From NCBI RefSeq assembly GCF_022788655.1, contig NZ_CP084951.1, forward strand, positions 1 to 64,000: a stretch of DNA of 64,000 nt. The letters run 5' to 3'. The notes beneath the pieces were generated by a model. That model made no database searches, was not told where the DNA came from, and saw only the letters and a program-made list of their open reading frames with translations. This DNA is from Sulfitobacter indolifex. GTDB taxonomy: Bacteria > Pseudomonadota > Alphaproteobacteria > Rhodobacterales > Rhodobacteraceae. The translations under genes were made by a program, and so were the position numbers. Within the stretch, counting starts at the first letter, position 1; the number at the start of each line of letters is the position of its first letter. This document shows, one piece after another, positions 7,117-15,369 of this stretch.

Positions 7117-8637
7117 ATGAATAGAACAATTACGACTGAAGCTAAGCAAAGAATATCCACCGGAACATCAGGCCTAGACTCAGTGCTCTGTGGCGGCCTG
7201 ACCCCGGAGAGACTTTATTTGGTCGAAGGCACGCCGGGTTCGGGCAAGACAACGCTTGCTTTAAAGTTCCTTATGGATGGTCGCGCCGCAGGGAGCAAAG
7301 GGCTCTACATCACTCTCTCCGAGACGGTGAATGAGCTAACCGCCGTCGCCCAGTCACATGGTTGGACGTTGGATGACATCGCTTTGTACGAGATGGTCGC
7401 CGAAGACGATTTCAGTGCGGATCACGAACAGTCCCTTCTACATCCAAGCGAGGTAGAGTTGGGCGAAACGGTGCGCGGCATCATTGAACTTGTGGAAAAA
7501 ACCAATCCCGACCGGGTCGTGCTCGACAGCCTCTCCGAACTGCGCCTCTTGGCCCAGAACCCCCTGCGCTACCGCCGGCAAATCCTAGCCCTGAAACACT
7601 TTTTTGCGCGGCGCAAATGCACTGTGCTGATGCTCGACGACCGCACCGCCGAGCCGGGTGATCTGCAGCTCCATTCCATTGCGCATGGCGTCATTTCTCT
7701 GGAGCATCTGGCGAATGACTTCGGCTCGGAGCGACGGCGCTTGAGGGTGATCAAGATGCGTGGTTTGAAATACCACGGGGGCTATCATGACTTTTCCATC
7801 GAAAAGGGCGGCATTTGTGTTTACCCGCGCCTGATCGCGGCAGAGCACCACCGTGTGCATTCCACCGAACCTGTGACCACCGGCCTAAAGGAACTGGACG
7901 CCCTTTTGGGCGATGGGCTGTTTCCAGGAACCAACGCACTGCTGGCCGGCCCCGCTGGCGTAGGCAAGACCACGACGGCGGTACGTTGCATGATTGCAGC
8001 GCTCGAGCGGGGTCAGAAAGCCGCGTATTTCTTGTTCGACGAACGGCTCGCGACGTTGATGATCCGTTCCAAGGCACTTGGGATGGACCTGCAACCCTAT
8101 ATCGACGATGGCTCTTTGCAGATCCGCCAGATCGACCCGGCCGAACTCTCGCCCGGTCAATTCGCCTATGCTGTGCGCGGGGCGGTTGAGGACAATGATG
8201 CAAGCATCGTGGTGATCGACAGCCTAAACGCTTATCTGCATGCCATGCCCAGCGACAACTTCCTCGTGCTGCAAATGCATGAGTTGCTTAGCTACCTGTC
8301 ACAGCAGGGTGTGATTTCGATGATGGTCCTCGGTCAGCACGGCATCACCGGCGAACTGCGTTCAGACATCGACATCAGTTACCTCGCAGATACCGTAATG
8401 ATGCTTCGGTTTTTCGAGGCGGAGGGCGAAATTCGCAAATCCATCTCGGTCATCAAGACACGGACCTCTGACCACGAGCGCAGCATTCGCGAGTTCAAGA
8501 TTGATCGGGACGGCTTGACCGTCGGCGCGCCAATTCGCAATTTCTCTGCTATTCTCTCGGGCAGTCCGGTATATACGCCGTCAAAAGGTGATCTGATGCC
8601 ATTGTCCGCAGATGATGCTGAGGATCGCCAATCGTGA
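7117..8637 (+). CDS. KaiC-like double-domain RecA-fold ATPase
   Basis: This 506-residue protein has the two-domain architecture of circadian KaiC. Domain 1 carries Walker A GTPGSGKTT at 38-46, and domain 2 carries GPAGVGKT at 278-285. The residues normally forming the catalytic Glu-Glu pair read SE in domain 1 (YITLSET) and DE in domain 2 (YFLFDER). The segment matching the KaiC phosphorylation pair Ser-Thr reads DISYLADT, so Ser is kept and Thr is Tyr. The ATG at 7117 is used; an upstream TTG at 6964 sits inside the gyrB hairpin. The stop overlaps the kinase start by 4 bases. No kaiA or kaiB is seen nearby. The role is inferred to be ATP-dependent signalling with the next two genes. Confidence 0.88.
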   Translation: MNRTITTEAKQRISTGTSGLDSVLCGGLTPERLYLVEGTPGSGKTTLALKFLMDGRAAGSKGLYITLSETVNELTAVAQSHGWTLDDIALYEMVAEDDFSADHEQSLLHPSEVELGETVRGIIELVEKTNPDRVVLDSLSELRLLAQNPLRYRRQILALKHFFARRKCTVLMLDDRTAEPGDLQLHSIAHGVISLEHLANDFGSERRRLRVIKMRGLKYHGGYHDFSIEKGGICVYPRLIAAEHHRVHSTEPVTTGLKELDALLGDGLFPGTNALLAGPAGVGKTTTAVRCMIAALERGQKAAYFLFDERLATLMIRSKALGMDLQPYIDDGSLQIRQIDPAELSPGQFAYAVRGAVEDNDASIVVIDSLNAYLHAMPSDNFLVLQMHELLSYLSQQGVISMMVLGQHGITGELRSDIDISYLADTVMMLRFFEAEGEIRKSISVIKTRTSDHERSIREFKIDRDGLTVGAPIRNFSAILSGSPVYTPSKGDLMPLSADDAEDRQS

Positions 8638-10079
8638 CTGGCCTCGCCGCACTTGCTGACACCACGACAGGACCTGGGACAGATATCTTGTCAGCCGTCG
8701 CAGTGGTGGCACCGCGTGGGCGCGACGATGCGGTCGCACGTCAGCTTTTGGCGAAGGACGGGATCGCGACTGTTTCCGCGCCAACGCTCACGACACTATC
8801 GGACCTTATCGCGCAGCATGTCGGGGCCGTGCTCATCACCGAAGAAGCGCTGAACAGCGCGGGGGCCCAAGAACTCGACCATGTGCTGACGTCACAGGCG
8901 GCTTGGTCTGACGTGCCTTTCATCGTGTTGGCCAATGGCACGTCACGCGACCGCAGCGAGCGCGCCACCCAAAAGATCGATACGCTGAGCAACGCCGTCT
9001 TGCTCTCGCGCCCCCTGCACGCCGAAGAGCTTATCCGCGCGGTCCGTTCAGCCCTTGCCGCCCGCGTTCGGCAGCATGAAGCCCGCAAGCAGCTTGAGGA
9101 GCTTCAGTGGCGTGAACGGCAGCTTTTCGAAAGCGAAGCGAAGTTTCAGGCAATCGCGAATTCGGTGGATCAGATGATCTGGTCGACTTTGCCAGATGGG
9201 TACCACGATTATTACAACAACCGCTGGTACGAGTTTACCGGCGTGCCACACGGCAGCACCGATGGTGAATCGTGGAACGGTGTGTTCCACCCAGATGATC
9301 AAGCACGGGCTTGGGATCTCTGGTCTCACAGTCTTACGACCGGCGAAATCTACGAAATCGAATACCGTCTGCGCCATCATTCGGGCGACTACAGATGGGT
9401 CTTGGGGCGGGCGCAGCCGGTGTTGGACAGGTCTGGCACCATTCTGCGCTGGTATGGCAGTTGCACGGACATCCACGAGATCAAGGTTGCCCAAGAACAA
9501 CGCCAGTTGATGCTGGGCGAGATGAACCACCGGGTAAAGAACACGCTGGCTATGGTGAACGTCATGGTCTCGCAAACGCTGCGACTGGCGGACAACTTGC
9601 CTGACGCACAAACCGCGCTGCAATCGCGCATTGCTATGATGGCGCAAGCCCATGATCGGCTGATCGCGGCGTCCTGGGCCGAGGCCCAAATACCAGCTGT
9701 GGTTGATGCTGCACTGGCGCCGCACCGCACTGGCGAGAGCCGTTTTATCATTGATGGGCCAGAGGTAGAGGTGGGATCGAAACAGGCCCTCGCGGTAACG
9801 ATGGCCCTTCATGAGTTATCGACAAACGCTGCGAAATACGGTGCGTTATCGAACAATGCGGGAAAGGTTCTCATCCGTTGGGGTGTCACCGATGATACCT
9901 TTACTTTCACATGGGAGGAAACCGGCGGTCCTCAGGTCGATGCCCCCACAAGGCGTGGCTTTGGCAGTCGAATGATCGAACAGGCACTGGCCAGCTATTT
10001 CCACGGGAACGTAGAGCTATCGTTCAAGCCGAAAGGCTTGTGTTTCACACTTAACGCACCCATGTCCGGTCTGCTTTAA
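8634..10079 (+). CDS. HWE-family sensor histidine kinase with PAS domain
   Basis: This is a predicted cytoplasmic histidine kinase of 481 residues starting at a GTG that overlaps the KaiC-like gene. Residues about 15-145 look like a receiver fold without the usual acidic pocket or phospho-acceptor Asp, hence a pseudo-receiver. A PAS_3-type domain follows at about 165-290 (RWYEFTGVP, GDYRWVLGRAQP). The H box MNHRVKN puts the phospho-accepting His at 299. HELSTNAAKYGALS and the WEE in FTWEETGG are the N-box His and W-x-E features that define the HWE family. No transmembrane segment is seen. It probably phosphorylates the receiver protein encoded next. Confidence 0.9.
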   Translation: MTGLAALADTTTGPGTDILSAVAVVAPRGRDDAVARQLLAKDGIATVSAPTLTTLSDLIAQHVGAVLITEEALNSAGAQELDHVLTSQAAWSDVPFIVLANGTSRDRSERATQKIDTLSNAVLLSRPLHAEELIRAVRSALAARVRQHEARKQLEELQWRERQLFESEAKFQAIANSVDQMIWSTLPDGYHDYYNNRWYEFTGVPHGSTDGESWNGVFHPDDQARAWDLWSHSLTTGEIYEIEYRLRHHSGDYRWVLGRAQPVLDRSGTILRWYGSCTDIHEIKVAQEQRQLMLGEMNHRVKNTLAMVNVMVSQTLRLADNLPDAQTALQSRIAMMAQAHDRLIAASWAEAQIPAVVDAALAPHRTGESRFIIDGPEVEVGSKQALAVTMALHELSTNAAKYGALSNNAGKVLIRWGVTDDTFTFTWEETGGPQVDAPTRRGFGSRMIEQALASYFHGNVELSFKPKGLCFTLNAPMSGLL

Positions 10080-10123
10080 AACCGCCTGACACCCTCTCTT
10101 TTATTCAATGAAAGCGCATTGAT

Positions 10124-10522
10124 ATGCACGCCAAAGACACCAAAAGGCCCGCCGTTCTGATCGTCGAAGACGAGCCGTTGTTGCGCATGGATGCGGTCGA
10201 CATGATACAAGACGCCGGGTTCAAGACCTATGACGCCCCCTCCGCCGATGCGGCGATAGAAATCATCGGCTCTCACGATGACATCGGCATTCTATTTACC
10301 GACATCGACATGCCGGGATCGATGGACGGACTAAAGCTTGCCGAATATGTGCGCGCCGGGTGGCCTTCGGTGAAAATATTGATCGCGTCAGGTGTGATCG
10401 GTGTCGGGGATGAGGAAATGCCCGAAGGATCGAAATTCTATGCCAAGCCCTATGCGACGAGTTTGATCATAGACGATCTGCGCACCTTAATTGCACAGGA
10501 CGAGATCAACAGCAGGTTATGA
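10124..10522 (+). CDS. Single-domain response regulator (CheY-like receiver)
   Basis: This 132-residue protein is a receiver domain alone, with no output domain. VEDEP provides the acidic pocket, Asp60 in FTDIDMPG is the likely phospho-acceptor, and KPY near the C-terminus supplies the conserved Lys. HWE kinases in alphaproteobacteria are often paired with such stand-alone or FAT GUY-like receivers. The gene starts 44 bases after the kinase gene, so the three genes are probably co-transcribed. Output would have to be through protein-protein contact, possibly with the KaiC-like ATPase, but that is inference. Confidence 0.9.
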   Translation: MHAKDTKRPAVLIVEDEPLLRMDAVDMIQDAGFKTYDAPSADAAIEIIGSHDDIGILFTDIDMPGSMDGLKLAEYVRAGWPSVKILIASGVIGVGDEEMPEGSKFYAKPYATSLIIDDLRTLIAQDEINSRL

Positions 10523-13200: not shown

Positions 13201-13857
13201 TCAGCGGGTCACGCTGCGCAGCTGTAGGATCTGCATCCCAATCGCCATGGCCGGGCCAATGCCCACCGCAAACAGTAACGTGCCAAGGCCCAAGGTGCCC
13301 CCCAACGCCCAGCCAATCGCGACCACGGTCAACTCAATGCTCATACGCACCAGCGCGATGGGTTTTCCCGTGACCCGCTGCAGCCCCGTCATCAGCCCAT
13401 CCCGCGGGCCGGGGCCGAGGTTTGCCACCAGATAGATCGCGCCGCCAAAACCTGTCACGAAGACCCCTGTTAACGCCAGCAGGGCATTCGCCAGATAGCT
13501 GTCAAACCGTGGCAAGATCGGCAATGCGTATTCCAGCACCAGCGCCACGATCACCGCGTTGAGGATGGTGCCGATACCCGGCGTCTGGCGCAGCGGGATC
13601 CACAGCAGCAGCACCGTCGCACTGATCAGAAAAGTCGCAAGCCCAAGGCTCCACCCTGTGATCTTGGTCACGCCTTCGGCAAAGACGGTCCAAGGGCTGA
13701 CACCCACGCCCGCATTGACCAAAAGCGCTTCGCCCAAGCCGAACATGACCAACCCGAGGATCAAAAACATCATCGAGGCAAAAGGCGGCTTGAGGGTGAA
13801 CGCCTTGGGCGAACTCCAACGCAGCGTGGGGACAGAGGTGACAGACAGGAAACTCAC
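13201..13857 (-). CDS. YczE/YitT-like integral membrane protein
   Basis: This is a predicted inner-membrane protein of about 218 residues with roughly five hydrophobic segments. The stretches GLGEALLVNAGVGVSPWTVF and NLGPGPRDGLMTGL are typical of the YczE/YyaS/YitT family, whose biochemical role is unknown. A GTG at 13857 with AGAGG about 9 bases upstream is preferred over a TTG at 13881. A later Met-Met at about residue 29 of this reading is another possible start. No partner gene indicates a function. Confidence 0.75.
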   Translation of the reverse strand: MSFLSVTSVPTLRWSSPKAFTLKPPFASMMFLILGLVMFGLGEALLVNAGVGVSPWTVFAEGVTKITGWSLGLATFLISATVLLLWIPLRQTPGIGTILNAVIVALVLEYALPILPRFDSYLANALLALTGVFVTGFGGAIYLVANLGPGPRDGLMTGLQRVTGKPIALVRMSIELTVVAIGWALGGTLGLGTLLFAVGIGPAMAIGMQILQLRSVTR

Positions 13858-13941
13858 GGGGCGCGACCTCTGACGATGCAATCTAGATGAGTAGTTGTTC
13901 CAGTTTACGCCAGACCCGGCAAGATCAATCCACCCACAGGC

Positions 13942-15369
13942 TCAGCGCCAACGGGAGAAACCGAAAGTCATGTAATCTTTCTGATAGGCATCCGCGGCGA
14001 GGGCTTCGATCTCATCGTCATAAATGTCGTTGAGCGTGAAAGGGCCGGGTTCTGAGCCCGCTGACACAGCAGGACTGGTGGCATGCCCCTGGGTCGCGGC
14101 CAGTGCAGTCAACTCAGCGGCCAAATCCTCTTCGCGGATGATGCGATCCGGCAGGCAGAACTCCCCAAATCCTGCAATGGCTTGGGCCTGAGAGCACCAT
14201 GCCGCATCCACCCGGATTGAGGTTTGGCCGGCCAGATTACCTTTGAGAAACTTTAGAAAAGACACAAAGGCGGTGCGATGCGCGGCACGGTCATACTCTG
14301 CGTCGGGCCCGTCCTTCGGCAACGGCATTTTGTAACGGCGCATCAGCGTGTTGCGCAGTTGACGATAGCTGCCCTCGCCCGTTGTGAGGATATGGCGGCA
14401 GAAAGCGTCATGCGCCCGCAACGCCGGATGGCGCAGCACGGTGAAGCCGCGATGGCCGGGCGCTTTGCGTTTCCACTGCCGCAATTCCTTTTGGGTCATC
14501 TTATCGCGCAGCGCTTCGCGTGGCACCCCATCGAGGGCGGCAAGCCAATCCAGCACCTGATCCTGCGGCCCGGATTTGATCGGTAGGTAGATTAACCCAC
14601 TCGTCGCGGCGGCCACATAGGAGGGCACATTCGGCCCGCGCCGCGGCTCAAAATTCGGGGTTCGGGTCAGATCAAAGCGGTCCAGCCGGGCCAGCGCCTC
14701 CAACATCTCGTTATAGTTGCTGACCTTGGCGGAGATCGGGCTGGGATTCTGTTTCTTAAGGTTCTTATCCAGCGCCTCTAACTGCTCATCCACACCAAGG
14801 TAGTGCGCAAGCCCGTTCATCACCTCAACGCTTTGCAGGTCTTCGTAAGCTACATAAAATGCCGTCTGCCCCGAGGTCTGCAAACGGTTAAGCAGGGTGA
14901 TCTGAAAGCGCTGCAAGGCGTCCAAATGCGCGCTAAACTCATCAGCGTTAAAAACCACCTGTGCCACCTTCTGCGCTTTCATATCAGTCAGCTTCCACTG
15001 GCCCGTCGCCTGCGCGATCTTCCAGCTGACGTAGCTGTCGACCGGATTACGCGTGAGCACGATCTTGGCGCAGCGCTGATCCTTGATGATGGTATCAAAG
15101 ACGCGCGGATCATGATCGTGGAAATAGCGAAAACCGCCCAGAGCATCCCGCTGCCCCCGGATTACAGCCAGCAGCTTTTTGGGGTTTTCGTCCCGCGTGG
15201 CCTGATCGACGCCAAGGATCGGTTCGCTCTTGGGGTAGCCCATGAAGAAAGGGTTAAACGCCTCTCCATGACAGGCGATCCCCGCAAAAGCATTCAGGTT
15301 TGCTTCGAGAAAGTTAGACCCGGTCCGCATCTCGGCGAAGACCACGAAACTGTCGAATTTGTCGCTCAT
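13942..15369 (-). CDS. Two-part sulfotransferase family protein
   Basis: Sulfotransferases move sulfate from PAPS to a sugar or other acceptor, releasing PAP. In this 475-residue protein the N-terminal half has a PAPS 5'-loop-like FAEMRTGSNFLEANL (residues about 11-25) and a 3'-phosphate motif KIVLTRNPVDSY. The second half restarts like a family-2 sulfotransferase: IYLPIKSG, then FTVLRHPALRAHDAF, ending DYMTFGF. Its P-loop equivalent lacks the usual TAGTT-type residues, so it may be inactive or acceptor-binding. The gene lies 3 bases after the GT14 gene and appears to be the last of that operon. Modification of a surface glycan is inferred. Confidence 0.75.
   Translation of the reverse strand: MSDKFDSFVVFAEMRTGSNFLEANLNAFAGIACHGEAFNPFFMGYPKSEPILGVDQATRDENPKKLLAVIRGQRDALGGFRYFHDHDPRVFDTIIKDQRCAKIVLTRNPVDSYVSWKIAQATGQWKLTDMKAQKVAQVVFNADEFSAHLDALQRFQITLLNRLQTSGQTAFYVAYEDLQSVEVMNGLAHYLGVDEQLEALDKNLKKQNPSPISAKVSNYNEMLEALARLDRFDLTRTPNFEPRRGPNVPSYVAAATSGLIYLPIKSGPQDQVLDWLAALDGVPREALRDKMTQKELRQWKRKAPGHRGFTVLRHPALRAHDAFCRHILTTGEGSYRQLRNTLMRRYKMPLPKDGPDAEYDRAAHRTAFVSFLKFLKGNLAGQTSIRVDAAWCSQAQAIAGFGEFCLPDRIIREEDLAAELTALAATQGHATSPAVSAGSEPGPFTLNDIYDDEIEALAADAYQKDYMTFGFSRWR

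Follow-up and report, generated by a model that had tools for sequence, protein, structure and literature searches.

Genes and Domains of the Locus

The analyzed window comprises the first 64,000 nucleotides of contig NZ_CP084951.1 of Sulfitobacter indolifex (assembly GCF_022788655.1). Three genes in this window, all on the + strand, encode a KaiC-like ATPase, a sensor kinase, and a lone receiver. This operon is a real member of a class of kaiC loci already described in 2011 (De Luca et al., 2011; PMC3164672). The constant partner of the ATPase in this class is the N-terminal pseudo-receiver of the kinase, herein referred to as HKN, and not the kinase core. Both points go beyond an earlier note made on this DNA from the sequence alone.

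The gene for the ATPase (7117..8637) begins with ATG and encodes 506 residues with two PF06745 domains (E 5.8e-72). The kinase gene (8634..10079) begins with GTG, overlaps the stop of the ATPase gene by 4 bases (GTGA), and encodes 481 residues, in which Pfam finds PAS_3 and HWE_HK (PF07536; E 4e-22, 79.2 bits with a gathering cut-off of 22.8). The kinase is composed of HKN (8664..9098, residues 11-155), a PAS domain (9099..9503, residues 156-290), and an HWE histidine kinase core (9498..10076, residues 289-481). The receiver gene (10124..10522) follows after a 44-base gap and encodes 132 residues matching Response_reg (E 5.5e-14). It carries E15/D16, D60, S89, and K108, which we take to have their usual functional roles in a receiver. 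Thus, the three same-strand genes with the 4-base overlap, reported by the earlier note, are borne out by the coordinates, and its domain assignments agree with Pfam and with the predicted model of HKN. The same gene order and spacing are found again in relatives, so the arrangement is not due to chance. The triplet is flanked by gyrB and the gene for monomeric isocitrate dehydrogenase.

The KaiC-Like ATPase

The ATPase aligns over its full length to solved KaiC chains; for the later analyses, the first 505 of its 506 residues were used. The best match (E 1e-59) is to 8zn5, whose sister entries in PDB bear the title 'designed' KaiC; matches to natural KaiC are at about 1e-45. Among the 50 matches listed for the predicted model (pLDDT 85), TM scores to KaiC, normalized to the query, are 0.75-0.80. 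Two RecA-like domains with Walker motifs are present, as in double-domain members of the KaiC superfamily. The score with the clock KaiC model TIGR02655 is 169 bits, far under the curated equivalog cut-off of 546, so by that test the protein is KaiC-like but not a clock KaiC. With PRK09302, it scores 275 (cut-off 408). A role in defense was considered and set aside: PADLOC gives a match to a single model (E 3.5e-11), restricted to residues 268-310, around the second P-loop.

Three pairs of sites were located by the alignment, with counterparts numbered as we take them to be in Synechococcus elongatus KaiC: Ser421-Tyr422 (8377..8382; S431/T432), the CI catalytic pair Ser68-Glu69 (7318..7323; E77/E78), and the CII catalytic pair Asp308-Glu309 (8038..8043; E318/E319). 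No gap interrupts the alignment for five residues on either side of the CII site; a one-residue gap falls six to ten residues before it, and the sites are equivalent to those of KaiC. The Ser-Tyr, SE, and DE pairs had therefore been read correctly, and the ST or SS phosphosite pair of clock KaiC is absent.

The residues were counted in 105 aligned sequences, including the window and leaving out the short locus L112; these sequences are not independent, as many are from Sphingomonas and two (L010 and L028) are probably the same gene. The phosphosite pair is SY in 92 sequences, TY in 11, SF in 1, and TF in 1, giving hydroxyl residues at both positions (Ser/Thr-Tyr) in 103. The CI pair has S (65) or A (40) at the first position and E (104) or R (1) at the second, and the CII pair is DE in all 105. 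The Walker Lys, Walker Asp, and arginine positions are kept in 104 or 105 sequences; the CII Walker Thr position is T in 91 and S in 14. Since Ser-Tyr and SE/DE recur across this set, they are features of the whole class, and the weight laid on them as special to this operon is not supported. Tyrosine at the phosphosite is also described for some cyanobacterial KaiC3 (PMC5520375).

The N-Terminal Pseudo-Receiver of the Kinase

HKN comprises about 145 residues and has no Pfam model. Its fold is that of a receiver, as indicated by a confident predicted model and a profile search. A KaiB/SasA-like fold, hinted at by De Luca et al. (2011) for the kinase N-terminus, was rejected because both methods return receivers; the matches listed for the model include neither KaiB nor SasA, a lack that excludes nothing alone. 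The N-terminal domain of KaiA weakly matches one of 71 HKN members (E 0.033). The receiver chemistry is not retained. The phospho-Asp site is occupied by Glu in 65 of 71 sequences, the window included, by Asp in 4, and by Ile in 2; the Lys site is Arg in all 71; and the acidic pocket in most cases has Pro followed by Arg or His. Nine residues are invariant across the 71 sequences: D21, Q78, W81, D83, R116, P117, R134, R136, and Q137 (add 10 for kinase numbering).

At least 554 relatives were confirmed in a scan of GTDB genomes, and the counts out of 80 or 79 loci given here rest on the best 80 of these. An HKN-like domain opens the next same-strand coding stretch in 79 of the 80 loci, and the remaining one (L018) is at a contig end. 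HKN was further surveyed in 385 genomes of the class Alphaproteobacteria, with up to ten candidates per genome scored. There were 24 matches, spread over 22 genomes, with E values no higher than 1.9e-37; the next match was only at 1.3e-9, and at E 1e-4 a match was found in 54 genomes. The KaiC-like gene had 23 matches at E 1e-90 in 21 genomes, all among the 22 genomes with HKN. Because the HKN query includes rows from these loci, the presence of HKN there is not an independent finding, and the informative part of the survey is that only one strong HKN match lies away from a KaiC-like gene. At 22 of these 23 positions, HKN comes directly after the KaiC-like gene. At the other, in G364, the contig ends, and a different contig of this genome has the end of a KaiC-like gene with HKN.

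In genome G088, a KaiC-like protein with 41% identity (L011) precedes an HWE kinase, and a weaker match to HKN (E 2e-18) lies on the same strand, possibly a further subclass.

Kinase Cores and Their Exchange

Unlike HKN, the kinase cores vary. Behind HKN, a HisKA core was found in 70 of the 79 loci, an HWE core in 7, and no core in 2 (L019 and L069), both with shortened kinase frames. The HisKA kinases carry a fused receiver in 67 loci and are cut by the sequence end in the other 3. The same two architectures were obtained by a protein search. A separate receiver, 52-69% identical to that of the window, is present in all eight other HWE loci of Rhodobacterales (L006, L013-L017, L020, and L026). 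The closest HisKA relatives (L021-L025 and L027-L035) share the PAS domain of the window at 61-76% identity and diverge beyond it, which places the exchange between the end of the first PAS domain and the phosphoacceptor helices.

The locus L019, from Sulfitobacter maritimus, looks like a decaying copy. Its KaiC-like match is broken, its kinase frame ends after 98 residues, and neither an HWE core nor a receiver was found in it.

The history of the cores was analyzed on an unrooted KaiC tree of 70 rows. Omitted were L018, L019, L069, L100, L103, and L108, where the core is unknown or weak or the gene is truncated; L112, for its short length; near-identical rows (>93% by a crude position-by-position count); and two of three Sphingomonas-group rows. 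Nine HWE rows of Rhodobacterales, a set chosen after inspection of an earlier tree, can be constrained together with a log-likelihood 4.6 higher than that of the free tree (AU p 0.64). Adding L101, an HWE locus of another family, costs 129 units (p 3e-55), which rules out a single HWE origin; adding L111, also from another family, raises the cost to 149 (p 2e-78). As L111 is a long branch, two separate core changes are firm on this tree and a third is likely. From its wide spread and majority state, HisKA would be the ancestral core that HWE replaced.

Directly upstream of one KaiC-like/HisKA locus lies an HWE kinase-receiver pair (L086:4905-5835; 38 and 36% identical to those of the window), an arrangement that may picture the capture of an HWE core with its receiver. 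A search for the donor gave receiver relatives in 22 of 120 family genomes and 17 HWE kinase matches in the genome of S. indolifex; the other two lone receivers found, L169 and L190, showed no HWE neighbor.

Distribution of the Cluster and of KaiB

Relatives of the ATPase are plentiful (at least 7999 candidates scored, all at E 0.001 or better). At E 1e-100, the KaiC-like cluster was found in only 4 of 295 genomes of the family Rhodobacteraceae, including S. indolifex itself and G088 with the distant homolog mentioned above. Plasmid copies are present in Loktanella salsilacus, which has the same triplet, and in Pacificitalea manganoxidans, where the kinase is a hybrid. A congener of S. indolifex (G055) has no triplet; it was considered as an empty site and rejected, because the DNA after its gyrB is unlike the window.

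No KaiB (PF07689, E 0.001) was found in the 8 contigs of the S. indolifex genome, which is 100% complete; this search covered KaiB, and none was made for KaiA. Hence, no kaiB elsewhere in the genome is available as a partner of this gene at that threshold. In the family, KaiB was found in a single genome of the 295, which has no KaiC-like gene, and both genes are so rare that a profile of kaiB versus the triplet is powerless there. In the 385 genomes of the class, KaiB was found over the cut-off in 13 and at E 0.001 in 18; of the 21 genomes that carry the KaiC-like gene, 18 lack a KaiB that passes the cut-off. In the three others (G338, G364, and G538), KaiB lies beside a different KaiC, 26-31% identical. 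The earlier note had proposed an operon without KaiB whose output passes through a two-component pair: the absence of KaiB holds for this genome, and the proposed output is supported by context, given the special kinase downstream in nearly all loci and the scarcity of KaiB among the genomes with the gene.

The kaiB-kaiC loci L012, L115, L117, and L119 of other Alphaproteobacteria each have an HWE kinase close by.

Comparison with Known Systems

The KaiC of Rhodobacter sphaeroides, which we take to be that of PDB entries 8db3 and 8dba, is likewise double-domain and aligns with the ATPase over residues 14-482. Unlike the ATPase of the window, it works with KaiB and has two serines at the sites and a long C-terminal tail. 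HKN is also found in a KaiC-kinase pair of Variovorax, a member of Comamonadaceae, to which presumably Ramlibacter belongs as well.

For the class of De Luca et al. (2011), kaiC genes with SY, TY, or SF sites are reported to be followed by, and co-transcribed with, a special kinase, without kaiB; an hourglass function was proposed. Its representative is Rta_04330/Rta_04340 of Ramlibacter tataouinensis ('dark-blue' context; PMC3164672), with a KaiC of the SY/TY/SF type, a kinase whose receiver-like N-terminus is conserved, and no kaiB. The window agrees in its sites, in the receiver-like-N-terminus kinase directly downstream, and in the absence of kaiB from its genome. It differs in the kinase, where an HWE core stands in place of HisKA/HATPase_c, and in its separate receiver. 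HKN was matched to the N-terminus termed RtaNt, and to the published consensus, by description. The rule of no kaiB elsewhere holds in only 18 of the 21 genomes across the class Alphaproteobacteria, and the N-terminus that was likened also to SasA and KaiB is modeled here as a receiver. In the open-licence literature searched, no report was found of an HWE kinase partnering a KaiC-like protein or of a core exchange, which does not imply absence from print.

The cluster KaiC2-KaiR2 of Methylorubrum extorquens AM1 also combines KaiC and KaiR without kaiB in it. KaiC2 is phosphorylated on one serine, Ser426, and the S426A substitution removes the phosphorylated band (Iguchi, 2018, via the review PMC8069551). 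According to this review, phosphorylation falls as growth temperature rises, although a figure legend words the heat effect the opposite way; KaiC2 has a role in UV resistance that depends on temperature, as its deletion makes cells more resistant at 24 and 28 degrees, with LabA proposed as the output. The Methylobacterium and Methylorubrum relatives found here differ from the window in having HisKA cores. Another similar set, the kaiC-kaiB-kinase-receiver operon BRADO1478-1481 of Bradyrhizobium (PMC3899966), compared by description only, groups KaiC with a PAS-containing kinase and a receiver of the CheY type and, unlike the window, has kaiB.

Proposed Function

The operon is best explained, with a probability of about 0.6, as a KaiC-like switch that works without KaiB, belongs to the class of De Luca et al. 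(2011), and has an HKN adapter and an HWE output. The ATPase would form a KaiC-type ring and autophosphorylate on Ser421, in a state shifting with ATP/ADP or stress. Because S426A abolishes the phosphorylated band of KaiC2, tyrosine on its own is an unlikely phosphosite; if KaiC2 belongs to this class, the serine would be the phosphosite and tyrosine alone would give no detectable phosphorylation. The kinase would dock on the ATPase via HKN, which cannot take phosphate in the usual way and would serve as an adapter. Together with the PAS domain, docking would then control how active the HWE core is, and from this core phosphate would pass to Asp60 of the receiver. The HWE core with its separate receiver would, in this lineage, have taken the place of a HisKA engine whose receiver was fused.

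With about even odds, HKN may be a dedicated KaiC-reading adapter for one ATPase class, carried onto unrelated engines (the HisKA hybrid, and HWE at least twice) without KaiA, KaiB, or SasA. An ancestral ATPase state would then have been wired into different phosphorelays. The constant HKN on exchangeable kinase cores is the most useful new point: it would mark KaiC-coupled kinases, gives binding and mutation experiments a direct target, and is relevant to KaiC signaling without KaiB and KaiA.

Several findings weigh against the KaiB-independent switch and its adapter. KaiB co-occurs with the KaiC-like gene in 3 of 21 genomes and with its absence in 10 of 364 (Fisher p 0.028), a weakly positive association and not avoidance. 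No match to the receiver of the window was found in the 10.5 and 11 kb searched at L101 and L111. Asp is retained at the HKN phospho-site in 4 of 71 sequences, and the orphan HKN of G645 (L210:8324-8686) has no KaiC-like match within 17 kb. Over the 55 loci left after thinning a set of 78, pairwise HKN distances follow those of KaiC (r 0.82) more closely than those of the HisKA core in the same kinase (0.72), with differences of 0.016 to 0.182 in subsamples; at 130 columns each, the values are 0.78 and 0.72, and KaiC is higher in 55 of 60 draws. This is modest evidence for the tie, and operon-mates share history anyway. Finally, KaiC2-KaiR2 of M. extorquens, placed by its serine number and gene order, probably belongs to the same class: counted from one possible ATG, the SY serine is number 426 in loci of Methylorubrum podarium, Methylorubrum salsuginis, and Methylobacterium crusticola, but 424 or 419 in three other Methylobacterium loci.

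The signal might also run the other way, with the kinase as an upstream sensor acting on the ATPase, HKN and PAS sensing redox or metabolites, and the receiver serving other partners. In CikA and KaiA, quinones are bound by pseudo-receivers that serve as clock inputs (PMC12632262), and some such role is conceivable here. It is nevertheless unlikely, given that the operon retains an HWE core that looks complete, together with a receiver that has the usual residues, which suggests an outward flow through both. Less probable still is an hourglass-type day/night timer, as proposed for Ramlibacter (PMC3164672), in which the kinase would read a ring phosphorylation that rises and declines in the course of hours. 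The hydroxyl residues at both sites in nearly all sequences would suit such a timer, as would R. sphaeroides KaiBC, which responds to the ATP/ADP ratio without KaiA; against these stand the lack of a detectable KaiB in the genome, the replacement of Thr by Tyr, and the data reviewed for KaiC2, which concern temperature and UV, not rhythm (PMC8069551). The same data tip the 'timing- or stress-type switch' of the earlier note toward stress, a role that we infer through the probable kinship with KaiC2. The switch is likely, and a clock is unproven.

It is very improbable that the kinase and receiver are a plain two-component pair traveling with the KaiC-like gene and never in physical contact with its product. 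The patchy distribution and the plasmid copies do suggest that the cluster is transferred whole. However, HKN stays tied to the KaiC-like gene whereas the cores vary, and L012, the sole kaiB-kaiC locus with an HWE kinase that was searched with the HKN profile, has no HKN. The KaiB-independent switch accounts for the operon better than any of these.

Elsewhere in the window, two frames on the - strand, at 13942-15369 (475 residues) and 13201-13881 (226 residues), have no Pfam match at 1e-5.

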